Numbered from the stretch's first letter, positions 15,052 through 32,462 are shown. The stretch is DNA of 32,462 bases from Clostridia bacterium (GCA_017462965.1 JAFTQC010000057.1:1-32462), one strand, 5' to 3'. Notes: a model not told the origin generated them from the letters alone. Program-made: numbers and translations.

Positions 15052-15223
15052 GACAAGGGGCCGGGGTTATCAACGAGGACAGCCCTTTTCATCAACGGGG
15101 ACAGCCCTTTTTGATAAATAAGTAAAAGGAATTTTCGCTTTCATTAATATTTACATTTATCAAAAAGGGCTGTCCCCGTTGATGAAAAGGGCTGTCCTCG
15201 TTGATAACCCCGGCCCCTTGTCC
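15052..15223. repeat. Very long near-perfect inverted repeat, family D
   Basis: Arms of about 68 bases (15052-15119 and 15155-15223) pair with only a single-base bulge in a G-run around a 35-base loop. Each arm contains two tandem units of about 21 bases of the type ATCAACGGGGACAGCCCTTT and an outer unit related to family A (GGACAAGG ... CCGGGG). It fills the space between the convergent rlmH and pilus-like operon. Confidence 0.9.
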
Positions 15224-15233
15224 CAAAAAATTG

Positions 15234-15653
15234 CTACCTCTTACTCACAGAATTTCTTTCTATAACCATCGGTATATTCTCATCTTCCACGAACGGAATC
15301 TTCAAATCGTAATCATATGCCACCTTTAAAAATATTGGATTACCGTATGACACACGCGATGCAGTGTAACTTATTTTCAATTTGTTATTATCAAATCCTT
15401 GCGCTACCAATTCATTTTCTAAATTTTTAACTTCATTCTTTGTAAGATAGCCATACTCCTCCATCACAAAAATATATTTAATGCATGCACTCGACAATTT
15501 CTCATACCAAATGTACGGCATCAAAATATTTACGGCAAGTACAATCAAAGTAGAAACAAGCATAACCCCAATTGCTATAATTATTGGCGTTGTAAGAATT
15601 GCATTTCCTTTGCAAGAACTAATTTTTCCACACATCTTATCAGCTTTTTTCAT
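15234..15653 (-). CDS. TadE-like / DUF4320-like membrane-anchored protein
   Basis: A 139-residue protein, last gene of the pilus-like operon. A short charged start (MKKADKMCGK) leads to a single membrane segment at about 20-44 and an extracytoplasmic domain. The layout, and the NEVKNLENELVAQGF and LKISYTASRVSYGNP stretches, resemble TadE-type or DUF4320 minor pilin-like proteins, but similarity is weak. The preceding gene is 16 bases upstream. GATGG precedes the ATG. Confidence 0.6.
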   Translation of the reverse strand: MKKADKMCGKISSCKGNAILTTPIIIAIGVMLVSTLIVLAVNILMPYIWYEKLSSACIKYIFVMEEYGYLTKNEVKNLENELVAQGFDNNKLKISYTASRVSYGNPIFLKVAYDYDLKIPFVEDENIPMVIERNSVSKR

Positions 15654-15669
15654 ATATCCATCAAACTTC

Positions 15670-16173
15670 CTATCTTTCCGTTTTCATCAAATTTAATGCA
15701 ACATCTTCGTGAACACTAAAAACAAAAATATCTTCTAAAAAACTTTTCAAAATAATCGGCTTTATTTTTACTTTCAGCACAGTGTGAATTGTCCTGTCAC
15801 CACACGCTTTCTTGGTATAAGAATCATTACTTCCCTTTTCATATATCGCATACTCCACTATCTCAACTGAAGTTATCATCTTATCGTCATTTGACAAATT
15901 TTCATCCAATTCATAGTTACTTTTCAAAAATTTTATAAACTCATCTTTATACGCACCAACGTTATATGAAAACCTGTCAACACTTGTACTGTACTTATTT
16001 ACAGCAATTATCGCACTTCGGTTCATCGAATACATATCAAGTTTTAAGTTGTACAAAATATTATTTATATGACTCATGAAAACAGCAATTACAAAAGTAA
16101 AAATAACTAAAGCTATTGCAATAAATATTGATGCAATCGTTAATACGTCACCTTTTTGATTTTTAAATTTCAT
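15670..16173 (-). CDS. TadE/TadG-like membrane-anchored protein
   Basis: A 167-residue protein starting KFKNQKGDVLTIASIF, in the style of class III prepilin or TadE/G leaders (QKGD followed by a hydrophobic helix at about 10-34). The rest is extracytoplasmic, with many Asp, Glu and Lys residues. GAGG lies six bases before the ATG. It probably forms a minor pilin-like part of the same apparatus as its neighbours. The family call is inference from layout and context. Confidence 0.6.
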   Translation of the reverse strand: MKFKNQKGDVLTIASIFIAIALVIFTFVIAVFMSHINNILYNLKLDMYSMNRSAIIAVNKYSTSVDRFSYNVGAYKDEFIKFLKSNYELDENLSNDDKMITSVEIVEYAIYEKGSNDSYTKKACGDRTIHTVLKVKIKPIILKSFLEDIFVFSVHEDVALNLMKTER

Positions 16174-16203
16174 AGCTCGTCCTCACCTGCAATTTCTAGC
16201 TTT

Positions 16204-17859
16204 TTAATAATTCGATATATATTTTGAAATGTCGTGATTATACAATTCGTCCCATCTCTCAGCAACATCAAAGCTGTAATTCTTGGTACGACTTCCTTTA
16301 TCCGAAGTTGCTTTTACAACTAATGTATAGGAACTTCCCTTTCTCTTAAAAAGCTTAGACTCATCAATTTTGAAAGCATCTTTTTTCTCTTCACGTAGCG
16401 AATTCCACGAATGCAACGTTTGCGTCGTTTGATATGGAATCACGTAGGTTGCTGAGAAAATATTTGTTTCTCGCTTTGATTTTTCTAATTTTAATCTAGC
16501 CGGCATATTATAAGCTCTTTGCAATGCAGCCAAACTTGAATATCTCGATTTTTCTCCTCTACTTTGCGGCTCATCCCATAAAAATCTTTTAGTCAAATTA
16601 TCCAACGTTCGAATAGAATTTGAGCCAGAAAAATCAAATGTAACTTTCTCGGCGCTCTTCGATGTCTCAACCTCTATCTTTATAACTTGTCCAGCACAAA
16701 CAAAAGGAAGTCCAGTCTTTTCATTAACATACAAATCTTCAGCAACTTCATTTCCCCATTTATCTGTAGTTATACGTTTTAATTTTATATTGTAAATTAT
16801 CGGTGCATATCTATCGCTTTCACTTGAAACTTTATTTTTCGAATCCGACTCTAAGTTAATTGTTATCGTCGCATTCTTATTTGAATACAACACAGGATCC
16901 GACGGAAAATATGTCGTCGCAAACGAATTACATTCAAGATTTAAGGTGATTTTTCCAACACCAGGATAATCATTCCTGTTCACAATCAAACTTCCGTTTT
17001 TGCCTATTCTAATCGTTTCTGATGCACTAACAATATCATAAGTTATCCCATTAACTTTGAGTTCAGACTCAATCAGTTTTATATGTTCATCTCTCGCGTA
17101 TTCCGAAAGCCCATCAATATACGCTCCAAAAGAAAATGGAATTTCAATTTCATTTACATCCTTGGGAATTGTATATTCTGCGCCATTCATTAAATCCAAA
17201 ACACTATTTAATTTAGCTTCACCAGCCATTGGAGGAATGCTAAAAGTTGCAACCCAGTACACATTTCCTTGTCCAGGTTTTTCAGTATAAACACTGCCAG
17301 CACTTCCCCACGTAGCATAATTTTCAAGGCGCACCTTATCTAAACCTATATCCATAACCGTTAAATCGTATGTAGTTCCAAACCTCGACAGCTTCTGGCT
17401 TAGCATATATTCTTTCTGCTCGTCATACATATACTTCGTCGCATCACTCCAAGATTCTTCAGCACCATTTATTACTCTGTAATTCCACTCAAGCGGCGAT
17501 GTTCCAGAATTATAATCGTCCGGAAAAATTTCATTATGGACAGACTTACCTGAAAAATCTTGACCTAGAACCCAGTATTCACCACGCTCGCCAGCACCAT
17601 TCCATGCGCCACCATCTTTAGTCCAATTTCCGTTATCCGTGCTTTTCCATCTTTGCTTCGGATCATTCACCGTAGTAGGACTCCCATAAACAATCAAATT
17701 ATATTTTTCATAAATTTCTTCATTTATTGGCAGACCATTAACATTATTCATTTCAATTTTCATCGCAGTAATCATATACAGAAAACCGCTACTATACGCA
17801 TAACACATAGGCATAGACATCATAAAACAAAATGTCATCAAAAATAAAAATTTCTTCAA
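16204..17859 (-). CDS. Secreted protein of unknown function in the pilus-like operon
   Basis: About 551 residues from a TTG start at 17859, chosen because AAAGGA lies seven bases upstream; a farther TTG at 17880 lacks a site. A signal peptide is clear (MKKFLFLMTFCFMMSMPMCYA). The mature protein is beta-rich with no cysteine motif or anchor, a tryptophan- and glycine-rich segment (KSTDNGNWTKDGGAWNGAGE, then GEYWVLGQDFSG) and a C-terminal Ig-like part (TLVVKATSDKGSRTKNYSFDV). I do not recognise the family. Position between the SLH protein and TadE-like proteins suggests a surface or tip component. Confidence 0.75.
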   Translation of the reverse strand: MKKFLFLMTFCFMMSMPMCYAYSSGFLYMITAMKIEMNNVNGLPINEEIYEKYNLIVYGSPTTVNDPKQRWKSTDNGNWTKDGGAWNGAGERGEYWVLGQDFSGKSVHNEIFPDDYNSGTSPLEWNYRVINGAEESWSDATKYMYDEQKEYMLSQKLSRFGTTYDLTVMDIGLDKVRLENYATWGSAGSVYTEKPGQGNVYWVATFSIPPMAGEAKLNSVLDLMNGAEYTIPKDVNEIEIPFSFGAYIDGLSEYARDEHIKLIESELKVNGITYDIVSASETIRIGKNGSLIVNRNDYPGVGKITLNLECNSFATTYFPSDPVLYSNKNATITINLESDSKNKVSSESDRYAPIIYNIKLKRITTDKWGNEVAEDLYVNEKTGLPFVCAGQVIKIEVETSKSAEKVTFDFSGSNSIRTLDNLTKRFLWDEPQSRGEKSRYSSLAALQRAYNMPARLKLEKSKRETNIFSATYVIPYQTTQTLHSWNSLREEKKDAFKIDESKLFKRKGSSYTLVVKATSDKGSRTKNYSFDVAERWDELYNHDISKYISNY

Positions 17860-17898
17860 TCTAAAATCCTTTCTTAACAAGTTACAAACATCCTCAAA

Positions 17899-19188
17899 TT
17901 ACTTTTGCTTAGCCACATAAAACTGCGGAACACTACCTTCCGGCTGATAAAAATTAATTATATAATTTCCAAATTTCTTTTGTTCAACATGCTTTATATC
18001 GCGCTCAACATTTGTTACAAATTTAATATTTTTCTCCAAAATATACTCGCATATCAAATTAGCATATCCGCCAAACTCAACTTCAAGCGCTTCTGCCAAC
18101 TTTTCCTTTTTATACTCATCAACATATATTCCGCTTTGATAATCATAAAAATCATCCCACATTTTCAAAACATCAATCTTCAAATAGCACTCATCACTAA
18201 ACTCTTCCACACCCGAAATCCTAGATAATTCATATGGTTTGTCCTCATAATATGTGAAAGAAAAATCATATTCATTACTTAAAGTATTGATTTCACTTTT
18301 CCCATATAAAATTCGCAATTGATTTATTGTATATTTTGAAGGAACGTACACAACTGCTACATATCTATTTTCGCTAACCAGCGTTTTGATTATCTTTATT
18401 ACTTTTTTCACTTCGACATTTTTATCATTCACTTCGTATCCATCAAGCTTGGCATATCTTCCGTGATCATATATAAGTAAATCATTTCCCTTTATTTCAT
18501 AATACGTTTTTATCGAAGATTTATTTGGATCATTCAAAACTCTATAATTTGTCAAATCTATCCTTTTGGCAACATCATAATCACGCTCTGAAATCAGCTC
18601 ATCCCTAGCATTCAACGTCTTACAAATTATTGTTGCAGCCTCAGCACGCGTAACATTATTTTTGCCTCTATACGTCTTATCCTCATAACCATTTATAATC
18701 TTCAACTTCACTAATTTTAAAACTTCACTTTTATACTCATTATCTAAATCTTTAAAAATATTTTTATTTTCTCTTACATCACTAGTATCAACAAATTTCG
18801 AAACTACATTTGCAATTTCATATCTCGTAATTGCTCTGTCATAATTTTCAAAATCATCACGAAGAATTATTTTTTTGCTAACTGCTGTCTCGATATAAAA
18901 ATCAGGCCAAACTGAATCACCACTTCTTACTAACGGATATTCGCCAGCCTCCACAATCATCTTCAAAAACTCAGCAACTGTAACATTATTCTCAGGTCTG
19001 AAAGTCCCATCGCCGTAACCAGAAATTATATTTCGATTAACCAATTCCTCAATACTTTCCTTCGCCCAATGATTTTCTACATCAACAAAATCAACCATAT
19101 TTTTAGCATACACATCATCATTTTGAGTAAACACAAAACTCACAAATAAAATCACAAATGCAAACAATCTCATTAAATTTTTTCTCAT
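17899..19188 (-). CDS. S-layer-homology (SLH) domain protein in the pilus-like operon
   Basis: A 429-residue secreted protein. The ATG at 19188 follows AAAGGAG, and a signal peptide ends near residue 28 (DVYA-KN). Three SLH modules follow at about 33-78 (FVDVENHWAKESIEELV ... GYGDGTFRPENNVTVAEF), 92-130 and 143-190 (GYEDKTYRGKNNVTRAEA). SLH triplets bind pyruvylated secondary cell-wall polymers, so the protein should sit on the wall. The remaining 240 residues are not recognised. In this operon it could dock the pilus-like structure to the wall. It starts 55 bases after the preceding gene. Confidence 0.92.
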   Translation of the reverse strand: MRKNLMRLFAFVILFVSFVFTQNDDVYAKNMVDFVDVENHWAKESIEELVNRNIISGYGDGTFRPENNVTVAEFLKMIVEAGEYPLVRSGDSVWPDFYIETAVSKKIILRDDFENYDRAITRYEIANVVSKFVDTSDVRENKNIFKDLDNEYKSEVLKLVKLKIINGYEDKTYRGKNNVTRAEAATIICKTLNARDELISERDYDVAKRIDLTNYRVLNDPNKSSIKTYYEIKGNDLLIYDHGRYAKLDGYEVNDKNVEVKKVIKIIKTLVSENRYVAVVYVPSKYTINQLRILYGKSEINTLSNEYDFSFTYYEDKPYELSRISGVEEFSDECYLKIDVLKMWDDFYDYQSGIYVDEYKKEKLAEALEVEFGGYANLICEYILEKNIKFVTNVERDIKHVEQKKFGNYIINFYQPEGSVPQFYVAKQK

Positions 19189-19243
19189 AACTTCTCCTTT
19201 TTGTGCAAGGTGGCCGAAAATCTCCGTCACCCTCTCCAAATTC

Positions 19244-19567
19244 CTACACAAATGATTTTGTAATTCTCTCTGCAATATACTCGTCCGTAGCTTTTCCTGT
19301 AATTATATCAATAACTTTATAATTTTTTATATAATCGTAAATTGTATTTTGATCAATATCTTTAGATACGATTATCAAGTTATTGTATTTGCAAAGTAAA
19401 TCATTATCTTTATCGTATTTATTATATTCACTCAATATAACGTAATCGCTCTTCGTACTTTTAAATGAATATGTGTTTTTTATTTCCACATTCTCATAGC
19501 CCCTAGCTTTTATCTCTTTTGCAATTCTCCCGTTTTTCCCCGTCTTATCTATAAAATATATTTTCAT
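19244..19567 (-). CDS. Small alpha/beta protein, possibly a TadZ receiver-like domain
   Basis: A 107-residue protein with an alternating beta/alpha pattern (MKIYFIDKTGKNGRIAKEI, then DYVILSEYNKY, NNLIIVSKDID, YKVIDIITGK) like an atypical receiver domain. In Tad loci this place after cpaB is normally taken by TadZ/CpaE, which has such a domain followed by a ParA-like ATPase; the ATPase part is absent here. It overlaps the cpaB stop by four bases (ATGA), so translation is coupled. The TadZ comparison is inference from context and length. Confidence 0.6.
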   Translation of the reverse strand: MKIYFIDKTGKNGRIAKEIKARGYENVEIKNTYSFKSTKSDYVILSEYNKYDKDNDLLCKYNNLIIVSKDIDQNTIYDYIKNYKVIDIITGKATDEYIAERITKSFV

Positions 19568-20274
19568 ACTTCTTCATCCTCTACATATTGATTTGATATG
19601 CCTGTAATGTTAAACGTGGCAATATCTCTAAGTAAGTTTATTTGTTTTGCTTCATCTGGTGTAACTGCAACCATAATTGAATCAATGATTCCATCCTCAT
19701 ATCCATTAACCTCAATTCCGTCAATGTTAAACGTGCCTAGGACTTGCGTAGAATCAAGTAACTTAATTACAGTATATCCATCATACTCGTCTCCAACCGT
19801 CAATCGCTCGTTATTCACCAAAAAATTCTTCGCATAATCACTTCGAACTGTTGCATATACATTAACCAACGAATTTTGCTTTATCGCATACGATACACCA
19901 TTCTCTGCATTTTGAATTTTTATTGATATCTTTTCTTTTCCATTTTCAGCCTCATATATCGACAAATTTTCCTTTGTATCAAATTGATTTCTCATCGCAA
20001 TTTGACTTTTATAAATATTGTCTTTTGCATACATCCCTTCGATTTCAGAAAAACTTGTAACAACTTGTGCCGTTGAAATTAGAGAAATCGGTACACCTTT
20101 TAAGGCAAACATTTCTGCTTCCAACTTTTGATTTGCATCAACATCTTGATTCAACACTAAACAATTTATCTTTGGCTCATAATCAATAAGTTGTTTTTGC
20201 ATATATGTAGATATTGAAAATACAATTATAGTCAAAACCAGTGTTATGCTCAAAATTCCAATTTTATTTTTCAT
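19564..20274 (-). CDS. cpaB: CpaB-like pilus assembly protein (SAF domain)
   Basis: A 236-residue protein with an N-terminal membrane anchor at about 7-25, a SAF domain at about 38-95 (VLNQDVDANQKLEAEMF followed by a VP motif) and a C-terminal RcpC/CpaB part (SLVNVYATVR and VTPDEAKQINLL). CpaB helps the outer assembly of Flp pili and in Firmicutes sits outside the membrane. It lies downstream of the pilin-like gene and overlaps the next gene by four bases. Confidence 0.8.
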   Translation of the reverse strand: MKNKIGILSITLVLTIIVFSISTYMQKQLIDYEPKINCLVLNQDVDANQKLEAEMFALKGVPISLISTAQVVTSFSEIEGMYAKDNIYKSQIAMRNQFDTKENLSIYEAENGKEKISIKIQNAENGVSYAIKQNSLVNVYATVRSDYAKNFLVNNERLTVGDEYDGYTVIKLLDSTQVLGTFNIDGIEVNGYEDGIIDSIMVAVTPDEAKQINLLRDIATFNITGISNQYVEDEEV

Positions 20275-20319
20275 TTTTTCACTTCTTTCTGCATATATTA
20301 AATTTTGCTCAAACCAACA

Positions 20320-20511
20320 TTAAACCGTGAATGGTGCACTTCCTGTAGTTTTGAACCATGTCGATATTGTTCCCATAACATCTCCAAATAAAGTTTGCAT
20401 TTGAGGATAAAAAACTGTTATTACAATAACTAATAGTACACCTGCAATTAGTATTACCTGCAGTATTTCAGATCCTCTTTGTGATTTTAAATTTACTTTT
20501 TGTTTTTTCAT
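20320..20511 (-). CDS. Flp pilin-like small membrane protein
   Basis: A 63-residue protein: basic start, QRGSE at 11-15, a hydrophobic helix at about 17-36 and a short aromatic tail. This is the size and plan of Flp-type pilins, with a glycine (G13) as the possible prepilin cleavage point. The glutamate is at +2 rather than the usual +5 after the glycine. AAGGAG precedes the ATG. It is the likely major subunit of the apparatus encoded here. Confidence 0.7.
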   Translation of the reverse strand: MKKQKVNLKSQRGSEILQVILIAGVLLVIVITVFYPQMQTLFGDVMGTISTWFKTTGSAPFTV

Positions 20512-20552
20512 TTTAATTCTCCTTTTTAATATTTTTAATTCACTATCGCTTT

Positions 20553-21392
20553 CTAGCTAAATATTGAATTGAAGCCTTGTCCAATCGATATAAACAATGG
20601 ATAAAATGTCAGCATTATGATATTTCCCAGCGCAAGTATTACTCCAAAAGTTATATACAAAACTTTTGTACGAGTATCACTTTTTACTTTTTCTAAATAC
20701 TTTGTCTTCAGCGTATCCGATAGGTTTTCAAGGATTTCTATTATATTCCCAACCTTCGAATATTCTTTTAATGAATTACAAAACATATTAATTTCTAAAA
20801 TATCAAATTTGTTTTTCAATTCTTCCAACGATTTGTTTATATCCAATTCCGAAAGTTCATACTGCGTCGCAAATTCCAAAATGGCTCTTTTAAAATCTTT
20901 GTTCTTACAATTTTCAAATTGACGTCTCAACGAATCCTTCAGATTCATCTCCGCCGCAAGCTGCAAGGATATTGAATCTACTACATTTAAAAGATCCGTA
21001 CAAATTTCGTTGTCCCTCGTTTTTTTATTCAAATAAATATAAATGTCCACGCAAAAATATCCCAGTGCACCAAGCACTAAGCCTAACAAAACAGAATTAT
21101 AATTAAATGAAGCTGCGAAAAATAACAGAAACGTTAAAGAAACTTTCAATAAATAATATGAAATTGCATTTAAATTTAATGGGTAACCTTGTTTAGATAA
21201 AAAATTGTCTTTTGCCTTTACAAAATTGATCTTTTGAAAAAAATTTTTAATAGAATATTCTTTGGTAGAAAAATATAAATTGTTCTTCTTTTTATATTTA
21301 TCCGTTTTTAGAAAAATGTTGTATTTATTGACCAACAAATACACCAACATAAAAATCAAAACAAACAAGAATACATTTATCACGTCAATCAA
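20553..21392 (-). CDS. T2SS F-type (TadB/TadC-like) inner-membrane protein
   Basis: About 279 residues from a TTG start at 21392, chosen because GGAAGTG lies six bases upstream and because the promoter at 21432-21460 places the transcript start too close to the farther TTG at 21431. Membrane segments fall near the N-terminus, in the middle (two) and at the C-terminus (VLYITFGVILALGNIIML), around a T2SSF domain with a helical EEIL-like core. Such proteins form the platform for pilus or secretion ATPases. It is the first gene of the operon. Only one F-type protein is present; Tad systems usually have two (TadB and TadC). Confidence 0.75.
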   Translation of the reverse strand: MIDVINVFLFVLIFMLVYLLVNKYNIFLKTDKYKKKNNLYFSTKEYSIKNFFQKINFVKAKDNFLSKQGYPLNLNAISYYLLKVSLTFLLFFAASFNYNSVLLGLVLGALGYFCVDIYIYLNKKTRDNEICTDLLNVVDSISLQLAAEMNLKDSLRRQFENCKNKDFKRAILEFATQYELSELDINKSLEELKNKFDILEINMFCNSLKEYSKVGNIIEILENLSDTLKTKYLEKVKSDTRTKVLYITFGVILALGNIIMLTFYPLFISIGQGFNSIFS

Positions 21393-21431
21393 AATTTTCA
21401 CTTCCCGTAATTTGTTTATTTCTTGTTTCAA

Positions 21432-21487: not shown

Positions 21488-21500
21488 ATGCATACACAAT

Positions 21501-21628
21501 CGTCCATGGGGGACGTCCGTCAAATGGACGAAAAAATTTTGGAATTTAGAACCGTCCCAATTTCCAATTTGGAATTTGGGACGGTTCTAAATTCCAAAAA
21601 AGTGGACAAAAGCCCCGTCCCCTTGTCC
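21501..21628. repeat. Cluster of family C, B and A repeats
   Basis: A family C hairpin (21501-21530, CGTCCAT ... ATGGACG with GGACGTCC), then a 63-base near-perfect palindrome of family B (21537-21599, core GAACCGTCCC/GGGACGGTTC), then an inverted family A unit (21604-21628). The three families occur side by side, so they probably spread together or recruit one another. Confidence 0.85.
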
Positions 21629-21634
21629 ATAAAT

Positions 21635-21663
21635 TTGCAAAATTATGTAAATTATGGTATAAT
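21635..21663 (+). promoter_or_regulatory. Sigma-A-type promoter of the second C-rich gene
   Basis: TTGCAA at 21635-21640, a 17-base spacer, TATAAT at 21658-21663. The leader to the ATG at 21745 is about 75 bases and contains an AGTCT/AGACT inverted repeat. Confidence 0.75.
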
Positions 21664-21744
21664 ATTATAGTCACAAAGACACTTGCACAGTCTAGAGGTT
21701 CCTTTATGGAAAGACTAGTGCCGACAAGAAAGAGAGGTATTTTC

Positions 21745-22266
21745 ATGGCTTCTAACAACAAGTCCAAGCACCACTTCAAGGAGTTCGTACTCGCTCTGAT
21801 CCTGATTCTCATCGTATGGGTAGCATGCATGACGTCCGGCAATGACATCCTCGTGCATATCGCACTCTGGTTTTCCGTCGTTTTCCTGCTCGTTATGCTG
21901 ACTATCGTTGGCATCAACGTTGTCGTGGATTTCGTCGATCTCGCCCGTGTGTGGAACTGGCTCGTGGGTGACTGCTTCCTGGACAAATGCAAAACCATCG
22001 TCGACGCTGCTGTAGATGGTGGCTTCGAGGAAGACGTTCCCAACAGAAAGTTCGCTACTTTCCTGGTTCTCGTATGCGGAATCATTGGTGGCTTTCTGGC
22101 ACGTTGCTTGTTCCTATACTCGATGTGCATCATTCTTGACAATGGTCTCTTCGGGGTCCCGAGCTGGTATTGGCTTTCCCTCGTAATCTTCGAGGTAATC
22201 GCCATCCCCGCAGTCTTCGTGCACTTTGCACTCCCCGTAATCGACCAAGAACTCCAGACGCTCTGA
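21745..22266 (+). CDS. Membrane protein with C-rich codon use, unknown function
   Basis: A 173-residue protein from an ATG with GAGAGG upstream; the in-frame ATG at 21706 has no site. Membrane segments lie at about 13-28, 34-58, 102-130 and 139-162, with a hydrophilic loop around residues 76-101. I do not recognise the family. Codons are ATC-, CTG-, GTC- and CTC-rich, as in the membrane-protein gene at 1887-3488 and unlike the other neighbours. It has its own promoter and a strong terminator and is flanked by repeat clusters. Confidence 0.7.
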   Translation: MASNNKSKHHFKEFVLALILILIVWVACMTSGNDILVHIALWFSVVFLLVMLTIVGINVVVDFVDLARVWNWLVGDCFLDKCKTIVDAAVDGGFEEDVPNRKFATFLVLVCGIIGGFLARCLFLYSMCIILDNGLFGVPSWYWLSLVIFEVIAIPAVFVHFALPVIDQELQTL

Positions 22267-22280
22267 ACCTTTCAAATCAA

Positions 22281-24251: not shown

Positions 24252-27200
24252 TTATTGTACTACGTAGCGGGCTGTGTTGCCGCATTTGTCGATTGTTTCT
24301 AGGATTGTGCCGCTTTCGACTGTGATGCCGTATTTGTTGCTTAGGTCGGTTGTTGTGATGCGGCCGTTTGTAAGCTCGACTGTCATGCCATTTACTTTAA
24401 GTACGTTTAGTCTGTGCTCTTCGGCGTCTTTAACTGTAATTTCTGTACCAGATACAGAAATTGTTGGTTTACCAAGTTCAACAATAACGTCTGTCTCAAT
24501 TTCGAATTCGCTAGCATTTGTAGTGTTTGATTTAACTGTATTTCCTGCTCTGTCTACTTCGGCGTATGTCTTGATTACCAAGAATACTGTACCATTTCCA
24601 GTTAGGTTCTCAGCGATTATGCTGTAGTATCTACCGTTCATAACCTCTGTTCCTTCTTGAACTGGTCCGTAAATCGTTGGAGCAGATTTTAAAGTTAAGC
24701 CTTCACCAAATCCAGTTTCGGCAACTACGTCACCTGCAACGTTCTTAACCCTGATCGCTATTTCAGCTTCAGTCAATTGCTCATTAAAATCATAATTAGC
24801 ATCTTTAATCAATAACTTGAATGATGTATTACTTACACCGTCATTACCAACGTATTGAGCAAGAAGTTTAATTGTAGCTGATGAATAACTGCTAATTCTG
24901 CCAACTCTATCTTTAACCCATACATAAACCGTCTTCTCACCATCACCAGTAGGCAAGTTCCAAAGAACTGTATCAGTGTATGGAACCCAGTCTTCTGAGT
25001 TATTAATTTGAGAATTTGTAAGAATAGTATTGCTTACTAAAACTTCAGCAAGACCAGTATCATCTTCAGCATCAATCTCAATCATAACAGCAGTGCTGTT
25101 TGCAAAACCTCTACCATCATCTTGAATCTTAATAGACTCAATCTTAGGAGCACTAGCATCAACAGTAGTAATATCAATAGCTTCGCCATATCTAGCAACA
25201 TTGCCAGCATCATCAATAACATATAGATAGTACACACCATTAGAAGTAACTGAAATCTCAAGAACAGTCTCAAGAGGAATACTATCAACTCGCTCCCATC
25301 TTGTAGGCTCAACGTCGTTCTTAGAAAGAACGTAACCGTAGATACCAGAAAGATCATCCTTAACCTCGGCAGAAAGAATAACTTCTTTTTGACCAGCCAA
25401 AGCTTCATACTTCACATTACCAAAAGTAGGTGAAACCTTATCTAAATTCTCAATAGTGATACTCTTCTCAGCAACATTACCAGCAAGGTCAACAGCAACG
25501 AAAGTATAAACACCATTTTCATCCACAGGAATTTCAATCATATCATCAACTAAAGTTATAGCAGCACCGTCAAATTTAACACTAAATAATCCAGACTCAT
25601 TATCTATAATTCTAGCTTCGATAATAACTTCACTGTTTCTCCACTCAGGCGTTAGATTTGTAAGTTCGATAGTAGGTTTAATAACGTCGAAATCAAGCAT
25701 AGCCTTCTCACGGTCGCCTACAGTCTTTCTAGAAAGCGCATATCCATCAACAACTTTAACATCGTCAGAGAACACCGCTCTGTAAAGAGCACCTTCAACA
25801 ACACCATCATAAAACTCTAAAGAACCTTGAACATTTCTAATACCATCCTTAGCACTGTAGATAGAAGGAACTTCAACGCTGATAGTTCCATCATCAGCAC
25901 CCATTACAACTTTACCAGATTGAATGTAGATACCTGTAGTAGCTCCGGCCGTACCAGAAGTAAGTCTAACAGCAATGTTACCACCAGTCATAACAGTATC
26001 ACCAGTATTGTAAACACCGTATGCAGTACCCTCTAAAGTACTTGCAGCAATTGATCCACCTCTAATATCTAACTTACCAGCATTCATAATAGCATAACCA
26101 GTACCATCTAAGTTAATCGCCTCGATGCTACCTCCATTTACAAGTGTCTTCGCATCAGTAGCATTGTAAACACCGTATGGAACGCCATCGCCAACGCCTT
26201 GAGCTCTAATAACACCATCAGTAACTGTAAGGTCACCCTCGTTCGAAATAACATAAACATTACCGTTATCACCACTAATGCCAAGTAAACCATTGCCAGA
26301 ATCCTTAATATTCATAACACCACGGTTGATAATTAAAGAGTTAGAAGCACTAGAATTCATCATAATATTTCTACCATTAATATCAATACCAACAAGTGTA
26401 TTTTCTTTGAATATAGCAGGTTCTGTAGCCTCTTCATCAAGTAATAAAGTTAAACTTCCTCTAACTGTAATATACTCAGCCGCAGCAGCAAGAGTTGTGA
26501 AATATTTATTAGCTTCAAAGTCGCTTTCAAGAAGAACGCCACTTCTTGCAAATACTTCTTTCTCATTAAATGTAGCATCAGTAAATACAGTCAAATTATT
26601 TTGATCATCATACAACTCACCAACAAATGAAACAGCAGTAATCTTACCGAAATCTTCAGGAGTAATTGTATATTCATACTTAATCTTGTTACCATTAACC
26701 TGGGTAGCTTCAAGCTCAGAAACCGCACCAGTTCCAAACACAATTGAAAGTACAGGTATAGTTCCTTTATCCTCTTTAAACTCTTCAGAAATAGTAGCAA
26801 CAATCTCTAAATATGTACCAGCGGCATAAGTACCACCATCAACATTTTCAACCTCAAGATTCAATACAGTAGGACCAAGTTCATCAATCAAGATGAAATC
26901 AACCTTCTCATCAGCATAATTAGCCGCATAATCCATCATCGCGTTGCAACCCTCGTAGTAGTAAACCTTAGAATTTTCACTAAAGTTCTTACCTAAATTC
27001 TCGAATACATCCCTTGCACCAGAAGCATCAGAAGTAATCGTAGTAATCGTTCTAGGAATTCTTAAAGTCTTAATATTATAAAGGTTAGCAAATGCATGAT
27101 GCTCAAGAGTAGTTAGGCTCTCGCAATCCATAAGCTCAAACTCAGTAATCATATTACATTCACTAAATGCATATGAACCAATCGTTTCAAGAGACTCAGA

Positions 27201-30200
27201 AAGCTCAACACCTAAAAGCTTATTACATCCAGCAAACGCATAAGCTGAAATCTTCGTTCCACCAATTTGACCATTAATCGACTCAAGGTTCTTAGCATTA
27301 TTAAATGCACCCTCAAGAAGAGTAGGATTTGATGAAACATCAATATTAATAATATTTTGATTATTAGCAAATGCATATTCAGCAATCACTTGAACAGCAC
27401 TATCAAGCACATAATCAGCAACATTATTCACATTAGAATGAACATATAGAATATCTTTATCCACTGAATATAAAGTTCTATCTTCATAAGTGAATATCGA
27501 AGTTCCGTTTGGGAACACGATGCTATCAAAGTTATTAGTCATAGCAAATGTAGAAGTTTCTACAGATACAAGGCTTGAAGGTAATGAAATAGTTTCAACC
27601 TTTGGTAATCTTCCAAGTGTATATTCTTGAAGAACAGTAACACCCTCTCTTACCTCAACACCAGCAATTTCATTAGCATAGTCAGCCCAAGGAAGTTCAT
27701 CCTCAGCAAAATATTTAACAGCGCCTTCACCCTCAATAACAAGCTCGTTATCAAAGTTGATTAATCCAAACACAGTTCCTGGAATAACACCGATATCCCA
27801 CTTAGCAAGACAAACATGTTTAGCTTCAATCTCTTGAACCGTAACATTTCCTGCCTCGTCTTTTACCCATACAAACCATAAACCGTTTGAATCAGCATGT
27901 AAAACATTTGTATCAACCCAAACCTCAGAATCAAGCGCTGGAGCTGTAACACCATCTTTAGTCAACGCATAACCAGCAATTCTGTGATTATCCTCAGCAA
28001 TAACAGTAAATCTCTCTCTCATCGCTTGAGCCTCATCAATAGTTTGAATTTCTTTAATAACTGGAGGAGTTGTATCTTGAACCTTAACAGTTCTAACAAC
28101 CTCTGCTCTAACCTCGCCTTCAGAATACAATGTATATCTAACCTCTTGATCACCTAAAACAGTTGTATCAAAGTTTGAAGTAATCTCTAATCTTAAGTTT
28201 CCAAGAGCTGAATGCTCGCCACTTTCAGTCATCAATTCCTCGATAACGAAAGCACCAAGTTCAACGTATTCATCGCCAGCTTCAACAACAACTTCATCAT
28301 CACCATTCAATCTCAATACATCGTAGATTCTAGCCTCTACACTAGCCCAATCACTTGAAGCCTTGTAACTAGCTGAATCAACAACATAAATATCAGCAGA
28401 ACCAGGAAGTAATGAAGCATCATCGATAGCACAAACAGTATCCTTCGCAGTCATAATAACTAAAGCATCTAATCTACCATCATTCTCAAAAGCATTAGCC
28501 TTAATATCAGTCGCACCATGTAAAGCCACTAAGCTCAAGTTATCAGAATCAGCAAACGCAAACTCAGGAATAACTTTAACCATACCAGGAACTTCAATCA
28601 TAGTAAGCGCTGTATTTCTAAACGCTTCTTTACCAATTTCTCTATAATCACCAGAAATCGAAATTGAAGTCATACCATCAGCATTCATAAATGCACCATT
28701 ACCAATTCTATCGATTACAACACCATCGATAACAACGTCACCAGCAAGAGCACCAACAGCAACAGCTATAAGTGTGTCAGTTTCATCATTAACAACATAA
28801 GTAGTGTTATAAACTGAATATTTAGAAATGTTATCTACATCTCCCATAGTAAACGCATTCACAATGCTTCCAGCGAAAGCACCTTCACTAATATTATCAA
28901 TAGTATTCAATAATACCACTCTATTAGCTGTAAGCGCATTTCTAAATGCATCCTCTTCAATATTCTTCATCAAAGTACCAATAGTAAGTGAAGTAGCCTC
29001 ATTTCCTTCGAAAGCAGCTTTCTTAACTTCTCTTACGTTGTTGCTTAACTTGATAGAAGATAAACCACAGTTCTTAAATGCATTCTCTTCAATCGTCATA
29101 GTACTAAATTTAAGCTCAACTTGAGTCAAGTTAGAACAATTTGCGAAAGCATCTTTACCAACACTAATTAGAGAATAAGGTAAATCAATTGAAGTAGTAG
29201 AAGTAGGAACAACAGCGTTTCCATCTAAACTTTCAACCTCAATTACCAAATAATCATTGCTTCCATCAACAACATCAGTAGGGAACTCTACAAAGCTATC
29301 AGTACCAGTGTATCTAACAACCTTCGCATATTTTCCACTAATATGTTTTTGATATTCAAACTCATCATATGTATAAATTGTATCCTCCCAAGAATCCTCG
29401 ATAACGTCAACCGTCTTCACGAATTCACCAGCAGGTAAACCATTATACAACAATGAATAAACAACTTTCTTCTCACCAACTGTAGTTACATCAATATCTT
29501 GGTTAACAACAACCGTCATACCATCTGTACTAATTACATAACCACCTTGAATAGAATCAACGTACTTATAATAATCTTTTCCAGACTTATCAACGTATTG
29601 AACTGTTAACTCACCACGGCTAAATGTAAAGTCTGTAATACCAAGCATAATCGTATCCACACCAGGAACACTAATATTATCACTTGAATCCATTGCCCAT
29701 ACATAAACTGTCTTCATGCCATTGCCAGCTGACAATGTATATGAAAGCTCAGTCTCGCCGTTATAATCTTGCCAACGAGAATCATCAGCTTTAAGATTTG
29801 TAAGATCAAGTTCAGTAACAAGAACCTTAGAAACCTCAATATCATCAGTAATCTTAACATTTAACACTACATCTCTATCACTTGTAGAAACAGCATCTTC
29901 ATTGATTACGAACTCTTCAACAACTGGAAGAACATCATCAATCATTACGAATGTTGTTCTATCACTTGTTGTCTTCACGTAATCCATCATAGCCTTGCAA
30001 GATGAATAGTAGTAGATTGGTCCAGCTACTCCATCAAACACATCAGCACCAATGCTTTCAAGTGTCTTAGGAATATGTGTACTTGCGTTAGCCTCTACAC
30101 CACCAAAGTGCTCTGCACCATTAAACGCCTTATCACCGATAGACTTAACGTTTGTTAAATCAAGAATTGTAATTGCAGTGTTACCAGCAAATGCTCCAGC

Positions 30201-32462
30201 ACAAATCTTTGTAACTGTTGATGGTAATGCATATGTGCCTTCGAATTCATTTGTATGAACATACAATGTTTCTTTAGAAGCATCATACAATGTGCCATCT
30301 TCATATACGAAGTTTGTATTTCCATTTAACTCGATATTATCGAAATTATTTGTTAGAGCAAATGTAGTATCACTAATTCTCTCTAGGCTTTCAGGAAGTT
30401 CTATATTTTGAACCATTGGCATGTTTTCAAATAGATAGCTTCCTAAATATCTAACTCCTTCGTCCACCTCGATGCTTGTGATATCCATTCTATTTCCTAG
30501 ATACCAAGGAGCACCAGATTTTTCGAAGTCTTTAGTCTCACCAATACCTTTGACGAATAACTCATCTCCGGCTGTAGATAGAATAGCTAAAACTGTTCTA
30601 TCACTATCTTTACTAATATCCCAAATAGCGCTACATACCCAAGAAGCTTCTACTTCATATGGATCAGAAACGTTACCAGCATTATCTCTTGCGAAGATAT
30701 ACCAAGTTCCGTTATCGTTTGCTTTAAGCGAGTTAGATGTTTGCCATCCAGCAACGTCTAAAGCAGGTTCATCACTTGAAGTACTGATAAAGAAACCAGT
30801 AACAGCGATATTATCTTCAGCATCAACTACAAATGTTTGATTATTTATAACCCAACTGCTGTCAGTCTCAACGCCGTTAATTACAGGTTTTACGTAATCA
30901 TTAATATCAACCGTTCTAAATACTCTATCAACTTCTACTCCATTATATTTTGCAATATAAGTAATAGTATGACGTTTAGCTTCATCAGGATTTACACTGC
31001 CTTCAACAACTAATTCAAGACCTGGGATCTTAGTTTCAGTTGTTGCAACATTAGTTACATCACCAAGAAGGTAAACACCTTCATCTGTGTATGGTGCATG
31101 TAATTCCCATTCCATTGATTGTTCACCAACCAATTTTAGAATTGGTTTAATTCTATTTGTGTAATCAGGAATTGTCTTGTAAACTGTATCACCTTCATAC
31201 ATAGCTTCCATTCCAAGTGGAACATAAACTGTTGCACCATCTGGAATTGCGTTTGCATTAGCAATTGTTGTGATACCTAAGTTTGTAGTAAACATGATAT
31301 CTTTTAAGTTTGCACAATCAGCAAATGCATATTCACCGATTGCAGCTTTGCTTTCAATAACTACATCGCTAAGCTTTGTATTTTGGAATGCTTTATATCC
31401 AATTCTACTCAAGTTCTTAGAGAACTCAAATGAAGTAATTGATGTACCAGCAAATGATTCAGTTCCAATTGTAGTAATATTTGAAGTTCCAGTTACTGTT
31501 GTTAATGTTGAAACCATCTTAAATGCGTCCGCATTTACTGTAGTAACATTAGCAAAATCTATAGTTTTAAGTTTAGTTGCATACATGAACGAAGATGATC
31601 CTATTACTTTTACACTATCTTGAACTTGATATGATTCAAAATCACTCGTAGTTGGATATGCAATTAACGTTGTTCCATCTGCTGTAAGAAGAGTAATATT
31701 GCTATCACACATCTTGTAATTTTGATTATTAGCATCAACATTTATGTCATAAATGTATGAACCTCTAAACGCACCTTCTGCAATATTCTCTACTGATGCA
31801 GGAATATTAATTACAAGGTTTTTGTTACTTGCAATCCATGATACTGAATTTCCTTCTATACTTCTTATAGTATTACCAAAATCAATATTATTCACGTTAA
31901 TACTCATCAAAGCGTTGCCTTCCAATACTCTGAAGTTATCTGGTAATACGAAATTATCTATTCTACTAGTGCTTCCTGATTTGTCAAATGCATAAGCTGC
32001 AATTGACATTACAGAACTTGGAATATCGATATTTTCTAATGCAGCACATTTTGAGAAAGCTCCTGCACTAATTCTTATTAGTGTATCTGGTAATATAATT
32101 TCTTTAATTGTATTGTCATATGTTGCACTATCAGAAGTTATAGATCCAAAGATATTCTTACTTACATCTGTATTTCCAACATCAATTACCTTATACTCTA
32201 CTCCGTTATGTGTTACTGTCTCTGGAATTTCAAATACTTCAGTAACTGTTCCTGTGAATCCTGTAATCTTAGCATATTTGCCATTTGTATGAAGTACGAA
32301 TGTGAATCCATCAGCTGTTGTGCCAAGAGCGCCATTCCATGAATTCTCGATTACATCAACAGTTCTGTGTTTTGTCACAACTTCTTTACCGTCAATAACG
32401 ATAGAGTAAGTAATTGTGTAAGTTCCAACTTCTTCATGATTTACGTTTCCTGTTACATAAAC
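24252..32462 (-). CDS. Giant BspA-like/Ig-like surface protein (5' end outside window)
   Basis: At least 2736 residues are visible; the reading frame is open to the right edge, so the true start lies beyond. It has a modular plan. Two tandem copies of a module of about 1000 residues occupy roughly 32460-29400 and 29400-26880: each starts with a TVDVIE(N/D)SW segment and a GKYAK beta domain, then a BspA-type (LRR_5) leucine-rich block, an Ig-like pair with DNAGNV or DEAGNV, a VC(S/L)A(I/K)WDI segment, a second LRR_5 block and a C(K/N)AMMDY segment. After 26880 a different part follows: a repeat-rich, probably beta-helical segment (26400-25730; GVMNIKDSGNG, GGSIEA), then several Ig-like domains (DLAGNVAE, DDAGNVARY). 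The end (DKCGNTARYVVQ) is an Ig strand with no LPXTG motif or SLH domain, so any anchor must be N-terminal. It is likely a secreted adhesin. Confidence 0.9.
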   Translation of the reverse strand, partial: VYVTGNVNHEEVGTYTITYSIVIDGKEVVTKHRTVDVIENSWNGALGTTADGFTFVLHTNGKYAKITGFTGTVTEVFEIPETVTHNGVEYKVIDVGNTDVSKNIFGSITSDSATYDNTIKEIILPDTLIRISAGAFSKCAALENIDIPSSVMSIAAYAFDKSGSTSRIDNFVLPDNFRVLEGNALMSINVNNIDFGNTIRSIEGNSVSWIASNKNLVINIPASVENIAEGAFRGSYIYDINVDANNQNYKMCDSNITLLTADGTTLIAYPTTSDFESYQVQDSVKVIGSSSFMYATKLKTIDFANVTTVNADAFKMVSTLTTVTGTSNITTIGTESFAGTSITSFEFSKNLSRIGYKAFQNTKLSDVVIESKAAIGEYAFADCANLKDIMFTTNLGITTIANANAIPDGATVYVPLGMEAMYEGDTVYKTIPDYTNRIKPILKLVGEQSMEWELHAPYTDEGVYLLGDVTNVATTETKIPGLELVVEGSVNPDEAKRHTITYIAKYNGVEVDRVFRTVDINDYVKPVINGVETDSSWVINNQTFVVDAEDNIAVTGFFISTSSDEPALDVAGWQTSNSLKANDNGTWYIFARDNAGNVSDPYEVEASWVCSAIWDISKDSDRTVLAILSTAGDELFVKGIGETKDFEKSGAPWYLGNRMDITSIEVDEGVRYLGSYLFENMPMVQNIELPESLERISDTTFALTNNFDNIELNGNTNFVYEDGTLYDASKETLYVHTNEFEGTYALPSTVTKICAGAFAGNTAITILDLTNVKSIGDKAFNGAEHFGGVEANASTHIPKTLESIGADVFDGVAGPIYYYSSCKAMMDYVKTTSDRTTFVMIDDVLPVVEEFVINEDAVSTSDRDVVLNVKITDDIEVSKVLVTELDLTNLKADDSRWQDYNGETELSYTLSAGNGMKTVYVWAMDSSDNISVPGVDTIMLGITDFTFSRGELTVQYVDKSGKDYYKYVDSIQGGYVISTDGMTVVVNQDIDVTTVGEKKVVYSLLYNGLPAGEFVKTVDVIEDSWEDTIYTYDEFEYQKHISGKYAKVVRYTGTDSFVEFPTDVVDGSNDYLVIEVESLDGNAVVPTSTTSIDLPYSLISVGKDAFANCSNLTQVELKFSTMTIEENAFKNCGLSSIKLSNNVREVKKAAFEGNEATSLTIGTLMKNIEEDAFRNALTANRVVLLNTIDNISEGAFAGSIVNAFTMGDVDNISKYSVYNTTYVVNDETDTLIAVAVGALAGDVVIDGVVIDRIGNGAFMNADGMTSISISGDYREIGKEAFRNTALTMIEVPGMVKVIPEFAFADSDNLSLVALHGATDIKANAFENDGRLDALVIMTAKDTVCAIDDASLLPGSADIYVVDSASYKASSDWASVEARIYDVLRLNGDDEVVVEAGDEYVELGAFVIEELMTESGEHSALGNLRLEITSNFDTTVLGDQEVRYTLYSEGEVRAEVVRTVKVQDTTPPVIKEIQTIDEAQAMRERFTVIAEDNHRIAGYALTKDGVTAPALDSEVWVDTNVLHADSNGLWFVWVKDEAGNVTVQEIEAKHVCLAKWDIGVIPGTVFGLINFDNELVIEGEGAVKYFAEDELPWADYANEIAGVEVREGVTVLQEYTLGRLPKVETISLPSSLVSVETSTFAMTNNFDSIVFPNGTSIFTYEDRTLYSVDKDILYVHSNVNNVADYVLDSAVQVIAEYAFANNQNIINIDVSSNPTLLEGAFNNAKNLESINGQIGGTKISAYAFAGCNKLLGVELSESLETIGSYAFSECNMITEFELMDCESLTTLEHHAFANLYNIKTLRIPRTITTITSDASGARDVFENLGKNFSENSKVYYYEGCNAMMDYAANYADEKVDFILIDELGPTVLNLEVENVDGGTYAAGTYLEIVATISEEFKEDKGTIPVLSIVFGTGAVSELEATQVNGNKIKYEYTITPEDFGKITAVSFVGELYDDQNNLTVFTDATFNEKEVFARSGVLLESDFEANKYFTTLAAAAEYITVRGSLTLLLDEEATEPAIFKENTLVGIDINGRNIMMNSSASNSLIINRGVMNIKDSGNGLLGISGDNGNVYVISNEGDLTVTDGVIRAQGVGDGVPYGVYNATDAKTLVNGGSIEAINLDGTGYAIMNAGKLDIRGGSIAASTLEGTAYGVYNTGDTVMTGGNIAVRLTSGTAGATTGIYIQSGKVVMGADDGTISVEVPSIYSAKDGIRNVQGSLEFYDGVVEGALYRAVFSDDVKVVDGYALSRKTVGDREKAMLDFDVIKPTIELTNLTPEWRNSEVIIEARIIDNESGLFSVKFDGAAITLVDDMIEIPVDENGVYTFVAVDLAGNVAEKSITIENLDKVSPTFGNVKYEALAGQKEVILSAEVKDDLSGIYGYVLSKNDVEPTRWERVDSIPLETVLEISVTSNGVYYLYVIDDAGNVARYGEAIDITTVDASAPKIESIKIQDDGRGFANSTAVMIEIDAEDDTGLAEVLVSNTILTNSQINNSEDWVPYTDTVLWNLPTGDGEKTVYVWVKDRVGRISSYSSATIKLLAQYVGNDGVSNTSFKLLIKDANYDFNEQLTEAEIAIRVKNVAGDVVAETGFGEGLTLKSAPTIYGPVQEGTEVMNGRYYSIIAENLTGNGTVFLVIKTYAEVDRAGNTVKSNTTNASEFEIETDVIVELGKPTISVSGTEITVKDAEEHRLNVLKVNGMTVELTNGRITTTDLSNKYGITVESGTILETIDKCGNTARYVVQ

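Follow-up and report, generated by a model that had tools for sequence, protein, structure and literature searches.

The stretch of DNA analysed here (hereafter the window; 32,462 nucleotides from Clostridia bacterium, GCA_017462965.1 JAFTQC010000057.1:1-32462) is the entire contig C33 of an uncultured gut Clostridium. A cluster of eight genes on its minus strand (15234-21431) is read as one half of a split monoderm Tad (type IVc) pilus, namely the half that supplies pilins and cell-surface proteins, with the motor half on contig C12, a sequence-based assignment to which we give a probability of about 0.87. All eight open reading frames (ORFs) were intact and tightly packed, with intergenic gaps of 16-55 base pairs (bp) plus one 4-bp overlap. 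From the upstream end, they encode a predicted Tad platform protein with one T2SSF domain (20553-21431; PF00482, 3e-5; TadC-like by position), a Flp-type major pilin of 63 amino acids (aa) (20320-20511; PF16982, 6e-4), a CpaB/RcpC protein with a SAF domain and one N-terminal transmembrane segment (19564-20274; TIGR03177, 1.6e-8; SAF, 4e-4; RcpC, 1e-3), a stand-alone, probably atypical receiver of 107 aa with a CheY fold (19244-19567; AlphaFold model and fold match), a secreted protein with three SLH repeats and a C-terminal region of ~230 aa (17899-19188; PF00395, 2e-27), a secreted Athe_2463-domain protein with an N-terminal domain followed by immunoglobulin (Ig)-like beta-sandwich regions (16204-17880; NF047340, 2e-26), and two TadE/F-like pseudopilins, the first with a prepilin-like N-terminal site (QKG/DVLT) and one transmembrane segment (15670-16173), the second DUF4320-like (15234-15653; PF14208, 2e-4, below cut-off) with a CKG/NAILT site. 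The gene inventory given in the initial annotation (one F-type protein, a pilin-like peptide, CpaB, and receiver-like, SLH, secreted and two TadE/G-like proteins) was confirmed. As that annotation had also stated, the operon lacks tadA, tadZ, any second platform (F) gene and any gene for a prepilin peptidase; the annotation was also right that the set departs from the classical Tad operon.

Hidden Markov model (HMM) scores for the short proteins were weak when taken singly, several of them falling below curated cut-offs, but the cluster stands well beyond chance because gene order and sequence are kept in many relatives. The platform protein, which probably starts at the GTG at 21383 as judged by alignment, has four predicted transmembrane segments and is kept as the first gene of the cluster in relatives, six of nine of which gave a T2SSF match. 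The Flp pilin scored 19.8 bits against PF16982 (curated cut-off 33.5) and lacks the classical G/XXXXEY motif; it carries a prepilin site (R-G/SEILQ) of which the G-S was invariant across nine relatives at 31-97% identity. For the 107-aa protein, which had been noted as receiver-like, the predicted structure was indeed a CheY fold (AlphaFold predicted local distance difference test score (pLDDT) 90.7; TM-score 0.75 to CheY and 0.68 to the pilus-assembly receiver 4dad); a sequence search against solved structures returned nothing useful, and no orthologue was found in loci L052 and L069. It is probably an atypical receiver, since the phospho-acceptor Asp was not conserved in the alignment of relatives. 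The SLH protein, which probably starts at ATG 19188 and not at TTG 19275, has a signal peptide and repeats with the motifs VTVAE, ITRYE and VTRAE; it is 42-78% identical within the family, and an SLH-type homologue is kept in families f87, f88, f28 and f63. The Athe_2463-domain protein occurs as a single copy in the genome. Structure prediction, which the initial annotation had proposed for this secreted protein (pLDDT 79.5, N-terminal part uncertain), resolved Ig-like sandwiches over residues 221-541; fold comparison retrieved general Ig and fibronectin type III sandwiches only (integrin, RbmA-like; Z ~9), which indicate no function, and left the first 220 residues unmatched, a result that excludes nothing. 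The 15670-16173 protein, for which no meaningful Pfam match was obtained, is called TadE/F-like from its K-G/hydrophobic N-terminus, its size and its conserved position, and both putative pseudopilins have orthologues at the same place in the clusters of relatives.

The genome, searched by family and by stretches, held tadA, tadB and tadZ in one cluster on C12, and two prepilin peptidase genes on C70 and C44, so that the description of the system as 'reduced' did not stand: what the window lacks, the C12 locus complements. Located between gyrA and rsmI, the C12 operon starts with genes for a 200-aa protein and a VirB4-like ATPase, continues with those for TadZ and TadA, and ends with those for a second T2SSF protein and a protein of 159 aa. 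The 421-aa ATPase had CpaF as its best solved match (5e-25, residues 49-406), ahead of VirB11 (3e-19) and FlaI, and matched T2SSE at 8e-25; since both curated NCBIfam models, VirB11 (146 bits) and TadA (112 bits), scored below cut-off, its assignment to the TadA/CpaF type leans on the CpaF match, the gene context and the relatives. In the 443-aa TadZ, the ATPase region matched AAA_31 (2.8e-11) and ParA/MinD structures, and an actinobacterial CpaE-homologue model was matched below cut-off (1.3e-7). Single-domain T2SSF platform genes numbered one in the window (TadC-like) and one on C12 (TadB). For tadV there were two candidates: like TadV, the 239-aa Peptidase_A24 encoded on C70 has no methylase domain at its N-terminus, whereas the PilD prepilin peptidase of a separate type IVa pilus locus on C44 has one; the C70 gene showed no specific link to Tad (see below).

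The two halves are inherited together. Among 95 genomes of the order, 31 had both TadA and the Athe_2463 protein, 61 had neither and 3 were discordant (1 and 2; Fisher p 1.7e-21, a statistic that ignores shared ancestry), but presence was patchy within one genus (g5 of family f2). The named relatives are uncultured Clostridia, several of them from rumen, rectum, omasum or rabbit ('Lapin') samples, and some of the compared genomes are incomplete; the window cluster without a TadA match was seen in G413, an assembly of many fragments, and in G444, a 94%-complete assembly. Gene order in the window cluster was kept in the genus and family at 42-97% identity. In the related family f87, the genes formed one contiguous locus in the order TadZ-TadA-TadB-TadC-Flp-CpaB-SLH-Athe-TadE-TadE (L080 and L081, the pilin being recognised in L081 only), while a single cluster in f28 held Tad, SLH, Athe_2463 and VirB4 genes, and Tad, SLH and Athe_2463 genes also lay together in f63 of the class. 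These arrangements bear on whether the window cluster might instead be served by the type IVa pilus machine on C44, the PilB, PilC and PilD of which place a motor with its own ATPase, platform protein and prepilin peptidase in the same cell. Such service is very improbable, given that the window genes occur together with TadA of C12, that in f87 they form a contiguous run with tadZ, tadA and tadB, and that Tad systems characteristically pair TadA with two single-domain platform proteins (PMC6668835).

Because the Tad, SLH and Athe_2463 genes are found together in f87, f28 and f63, the contiguous state is most simply taken as ancestral, and the break between tadB and tadC as derived. The idea that the split reflects an assembly break was rejected: both halves lie in the interior of their contigs, and where both were found on a single contig they were separated by ~12 kilobases (kb) in G266 and by up to ~142 kb in G066 (contig of 499 kb). 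Between G000 and G066, the two nearest genomes, the ratio of nonsynonymous to synonymous substitution rates (dN/dS) was 0.03-0.14 among the window genes and 0.02-0.19 among those of C12, with no internal stops; both halves are under strong purifying selection. The absence of tadA, tadZ, tadB and tadV from the cluster, along with several low single-sequence HMM scores, might be taken as the mark of a non-functional, degraded or duplicated Tad remnant, and the initial annotation had allowed for a degraded duplicate of a complete second locus. This is extremely improbable in view of the eight intact genes, their low dN/dS and the gene order and identity kept across the family, and no second copy of the genes was found: Athe_2463 is present once, no single-domain T2SSF gene other than the C12 complement accompanies that of the window, and the halves do not repeat each other. 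As a separate observation, a palindrome of ~90 bp with identical arms (GGGGACAGCCCTTTTTGATAAAT) 35 bp apart borders the window operon on its downstream side (15093-15181) and the C12 Tad operon on its upstream side (L008, 13358-13446); it was not found in ~90 kb of other stretches of the genome, nor in the loci of relatives, and may be either a mobile element of palindromic form or a relic of the split.

Several observations weigh against a single two-part Tad system with a dedicated surface module. One genome (G335) had TadA without the window cluster. The C70 prepilin peptidase was present in 87 of the 95 genomes of the order regardless of Tad, which makes its link to Tad non-specific; its identification as a Tad-specific TadV is unsupported by co-occurrence, the gene being kept in Tad-less genomes, and its link to the Tad pilus is putative. 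In family f2, a short transmembrane protein replaces the SLH protein while Athe_2463 is retained, and the SLH/Athe_2463 pair was found without Tad neighbours at L097, L103, L115 and L122. The pair is therefore not a set of Tad-only genes, an idea that was rejected, and the surface module is not obligatory, because stand-alone pairs occur and the SLH protein is exchanged in f2. SLH-type and Athe_2463 genes were adjacent in about half of the 38 loci of the class examined outside the order, and the pair lay inside Tad loci at L063, L064, L098, L101, L102 and L125.

With the split Tad pilus as the preferred reading, TadZ would position the machine and TadA would drive two platform proteins, TadB from C12 and the TadC-like protein of the window. 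With Flp and the two pseudopilins processed by a prepilin peptidase encoded in the genome, the machine would assemble a thin pilus, with CpaB and the receiver as presumed assembly or positioning factors. The three SLH repeats would hold the SLH protein on wall polysaccharide, and together with the Ig-rich Athe_2463 protein it may form an adhesin or a collar on the cell surface at the point of exit of the pilus from the wall; we infer an anchor or adhesin role for this module. The wall-anchored appendage suggested in the initial annotation is plausible in the form of a wall- or S-layer-associated structure, probably a wall-anchored adhesive pilus with adhesion as its likely function. It is conceivable, though we consider it rather unlikely, that the split machine is mainly a device for DNA uptake or for secretion by a short pseudopilus: a VirB4-type ATPase lies beside the motor half, and transformation of Micrococcus luteus needs Tad pili from two distant, complementary tad loci (PMC4322843), but adhesion fits the SLH and Ig-rich surface proteins better.

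The VirB4 genes are the least ordinary part of the system. The 200-aa and 606-aa proteins of C12 together make up one VirB4 in two pieces, because they match complementary parts of one model (NF045975, positions 97-276 and 304-893, respectively), and the solved VirB4 4ag5 was matched at 5e-102 in a profile search. Among the matches listed, those of f1, f2 and f88 showed the pair next to the Tad motor genes, and in the distant f28 it lay behind the Tad-SLH-Athe genes; in f87 it was elsewhere, unlinked from Tad, and in f3 and the Tad-less f2 genomes VirB4 was kept without TadA, usually with a TadZ-like gene. An obligate part in the Tad machine is therefore unsupported, and the pair is better described as a neighbour that also exists independently of Tad, for which joint action with the pilus is possible. 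By analogy with archaeal Ups/Ced, a Tad pilus that has acquired a dedicated exit or adhesion module (SLH/Athe_2463) might, together with the VirB4 pair and TadZ, make up a pilus-assisted apparatus for DNA or protein transfer; the proximity of VirB4 to Tad motor genes in f1, f2, f88 and f28 counts for this proposal, its unlinked state in f87 and its persistence without TadA in f3 and Tad-less f2 genomes count against it, and we regard it as improbable. No relaxase, coupling protein, VirB6 or VirB8 was recognised in 17 kb around the C12 operon, the only part of the genome searched for them; the same 17 kb holds the housekeeping genes dprA, comM, gyrA and rsmI, and an integrative and conjugative element at C12 was rejected on account of these flanks and the lack of a relaxase nearby. 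Short proteins with two transmembrane segments and the motif FIFPxNYxxxEKFLG (L082 3322-3648, L083 7138-7527, L054 9041-9340) directly precede the VirB4 pair in f87 and occur at a different site in G299; by eye they resemble PrgI/VirB3-type proteins, and the one that was scanned (L082) had no Pfam match. In the Tad-less f3, a very A-rich stretch of ~4 kb without clear ORFs follows virB4-tadZ next to gyrA (L066 12490-16450), possibly the decayed remains of tadA and tadB.

Both the window cluster and the C12 operon are bordered by housekeeping genes on each side, those of the window being, by sequence, of rlmH/murA type downstream and spmA/spmB type upstream. Sigma-70-like sites were no more frequent than in shuffled sequence. 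Upstream of the operon, 24252-32378 is occupied by a single open frame of 2708 aa that looks like a leucine-rich-repeat surface protein, and a large, related-looking ORF lies near the cluster of G066. A patch of 50% G+C (21700-22270) within the 36% G+C window encodes, divergently from the operon, a membrane protein of 186 aa; the corresponding position in G066 is taken by a homologous-looking protein of 200 aa, and no such protein was listed at that position in G266 or G299. Hairpin repeats (GGGACGG/CCGTCCC) are scattered in the window, one of them at 21500-21640, between the high-G+C patch and the operon.

We know of no account of how Tad pili cross and hold on to the monoderm wall, and the conserved pair of SLH and Ig-rich secreted proteins inside Tad loci provides named candidates for this step. 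The split is also a warning, in that annotation locus by locus would label both halves incomplete, and the VirB4 pair beside the motor genes raises a testable question of DNA or protein transfer. A single tad locus for all genes is usual, although not universal. The organisation of tad loci is known to vary in other monoderms (PMC4322843), so that a division over C12 and C33 does not disqualify the system as Tad. Like the monoderm Tad system of Bifidobacterium breve (PMC6916266), it has a small Flp pilin, two minor pilins, two platform proteins, TadA, TadZ and a prepilin peptidase at another locus; unlike in B. breve, the genes are divided over two loci at tadB/tadC, CpaB, a stand-alone receiver, and SLH and Athe_2463 proteins are added, and a VirB4 pair stands beside tadZ. 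The tad-1 and tad-2 loci of M. luteus are likewise distant and complementary, serve one pilus and include no tadV (PMC4322843), but each holds a largely complete set, whereas here the loci are complementary halves with one T2SSF platform gene each. The same secreted Athe_2463 domain is known from Athe_2463/Athe_2464 of Caldicellulosiruptor bescii, where Athe_2463 and its operon neighbour are both abundant outside the cell (PMC5865380); the paper gave no match for 'pilus' or 'Flp'. For the VirB4 pair, the nearest functional analogy is the archaeal Ced/Ted systems with Ups pili, in which a VirB4-like ATPase acts jointly with a type IV-related pilus; a ParA/MinD ATPase is also encoded in Ted loci (PMC9905601). 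Unlike in those systems, no VirB6-like channel was identified here, and the likeness is one of analogy only. No published report of SLH proteins or of VirB4 together with Tad pili was found in a search that covered few subscription papers; a Paenibacillus paper that it retrieved (PMC5072692) proved unrelated. Reduced monoderm Tad machines, a TadV at another locus and the two complementary tad loci of M. luteus have already been published (PMC6916266, PMC4322843); as far as the literature searched shows, what is new is that a clade of gut Clostridia has the genes cleanly divided into two complementary halves, that Tad loci include an SLH/Athe_2463 module and that VirB4 is a neighbour. Set against these systems, the one described here is a real, conserved variant of the Tad pilus and not a new machine.

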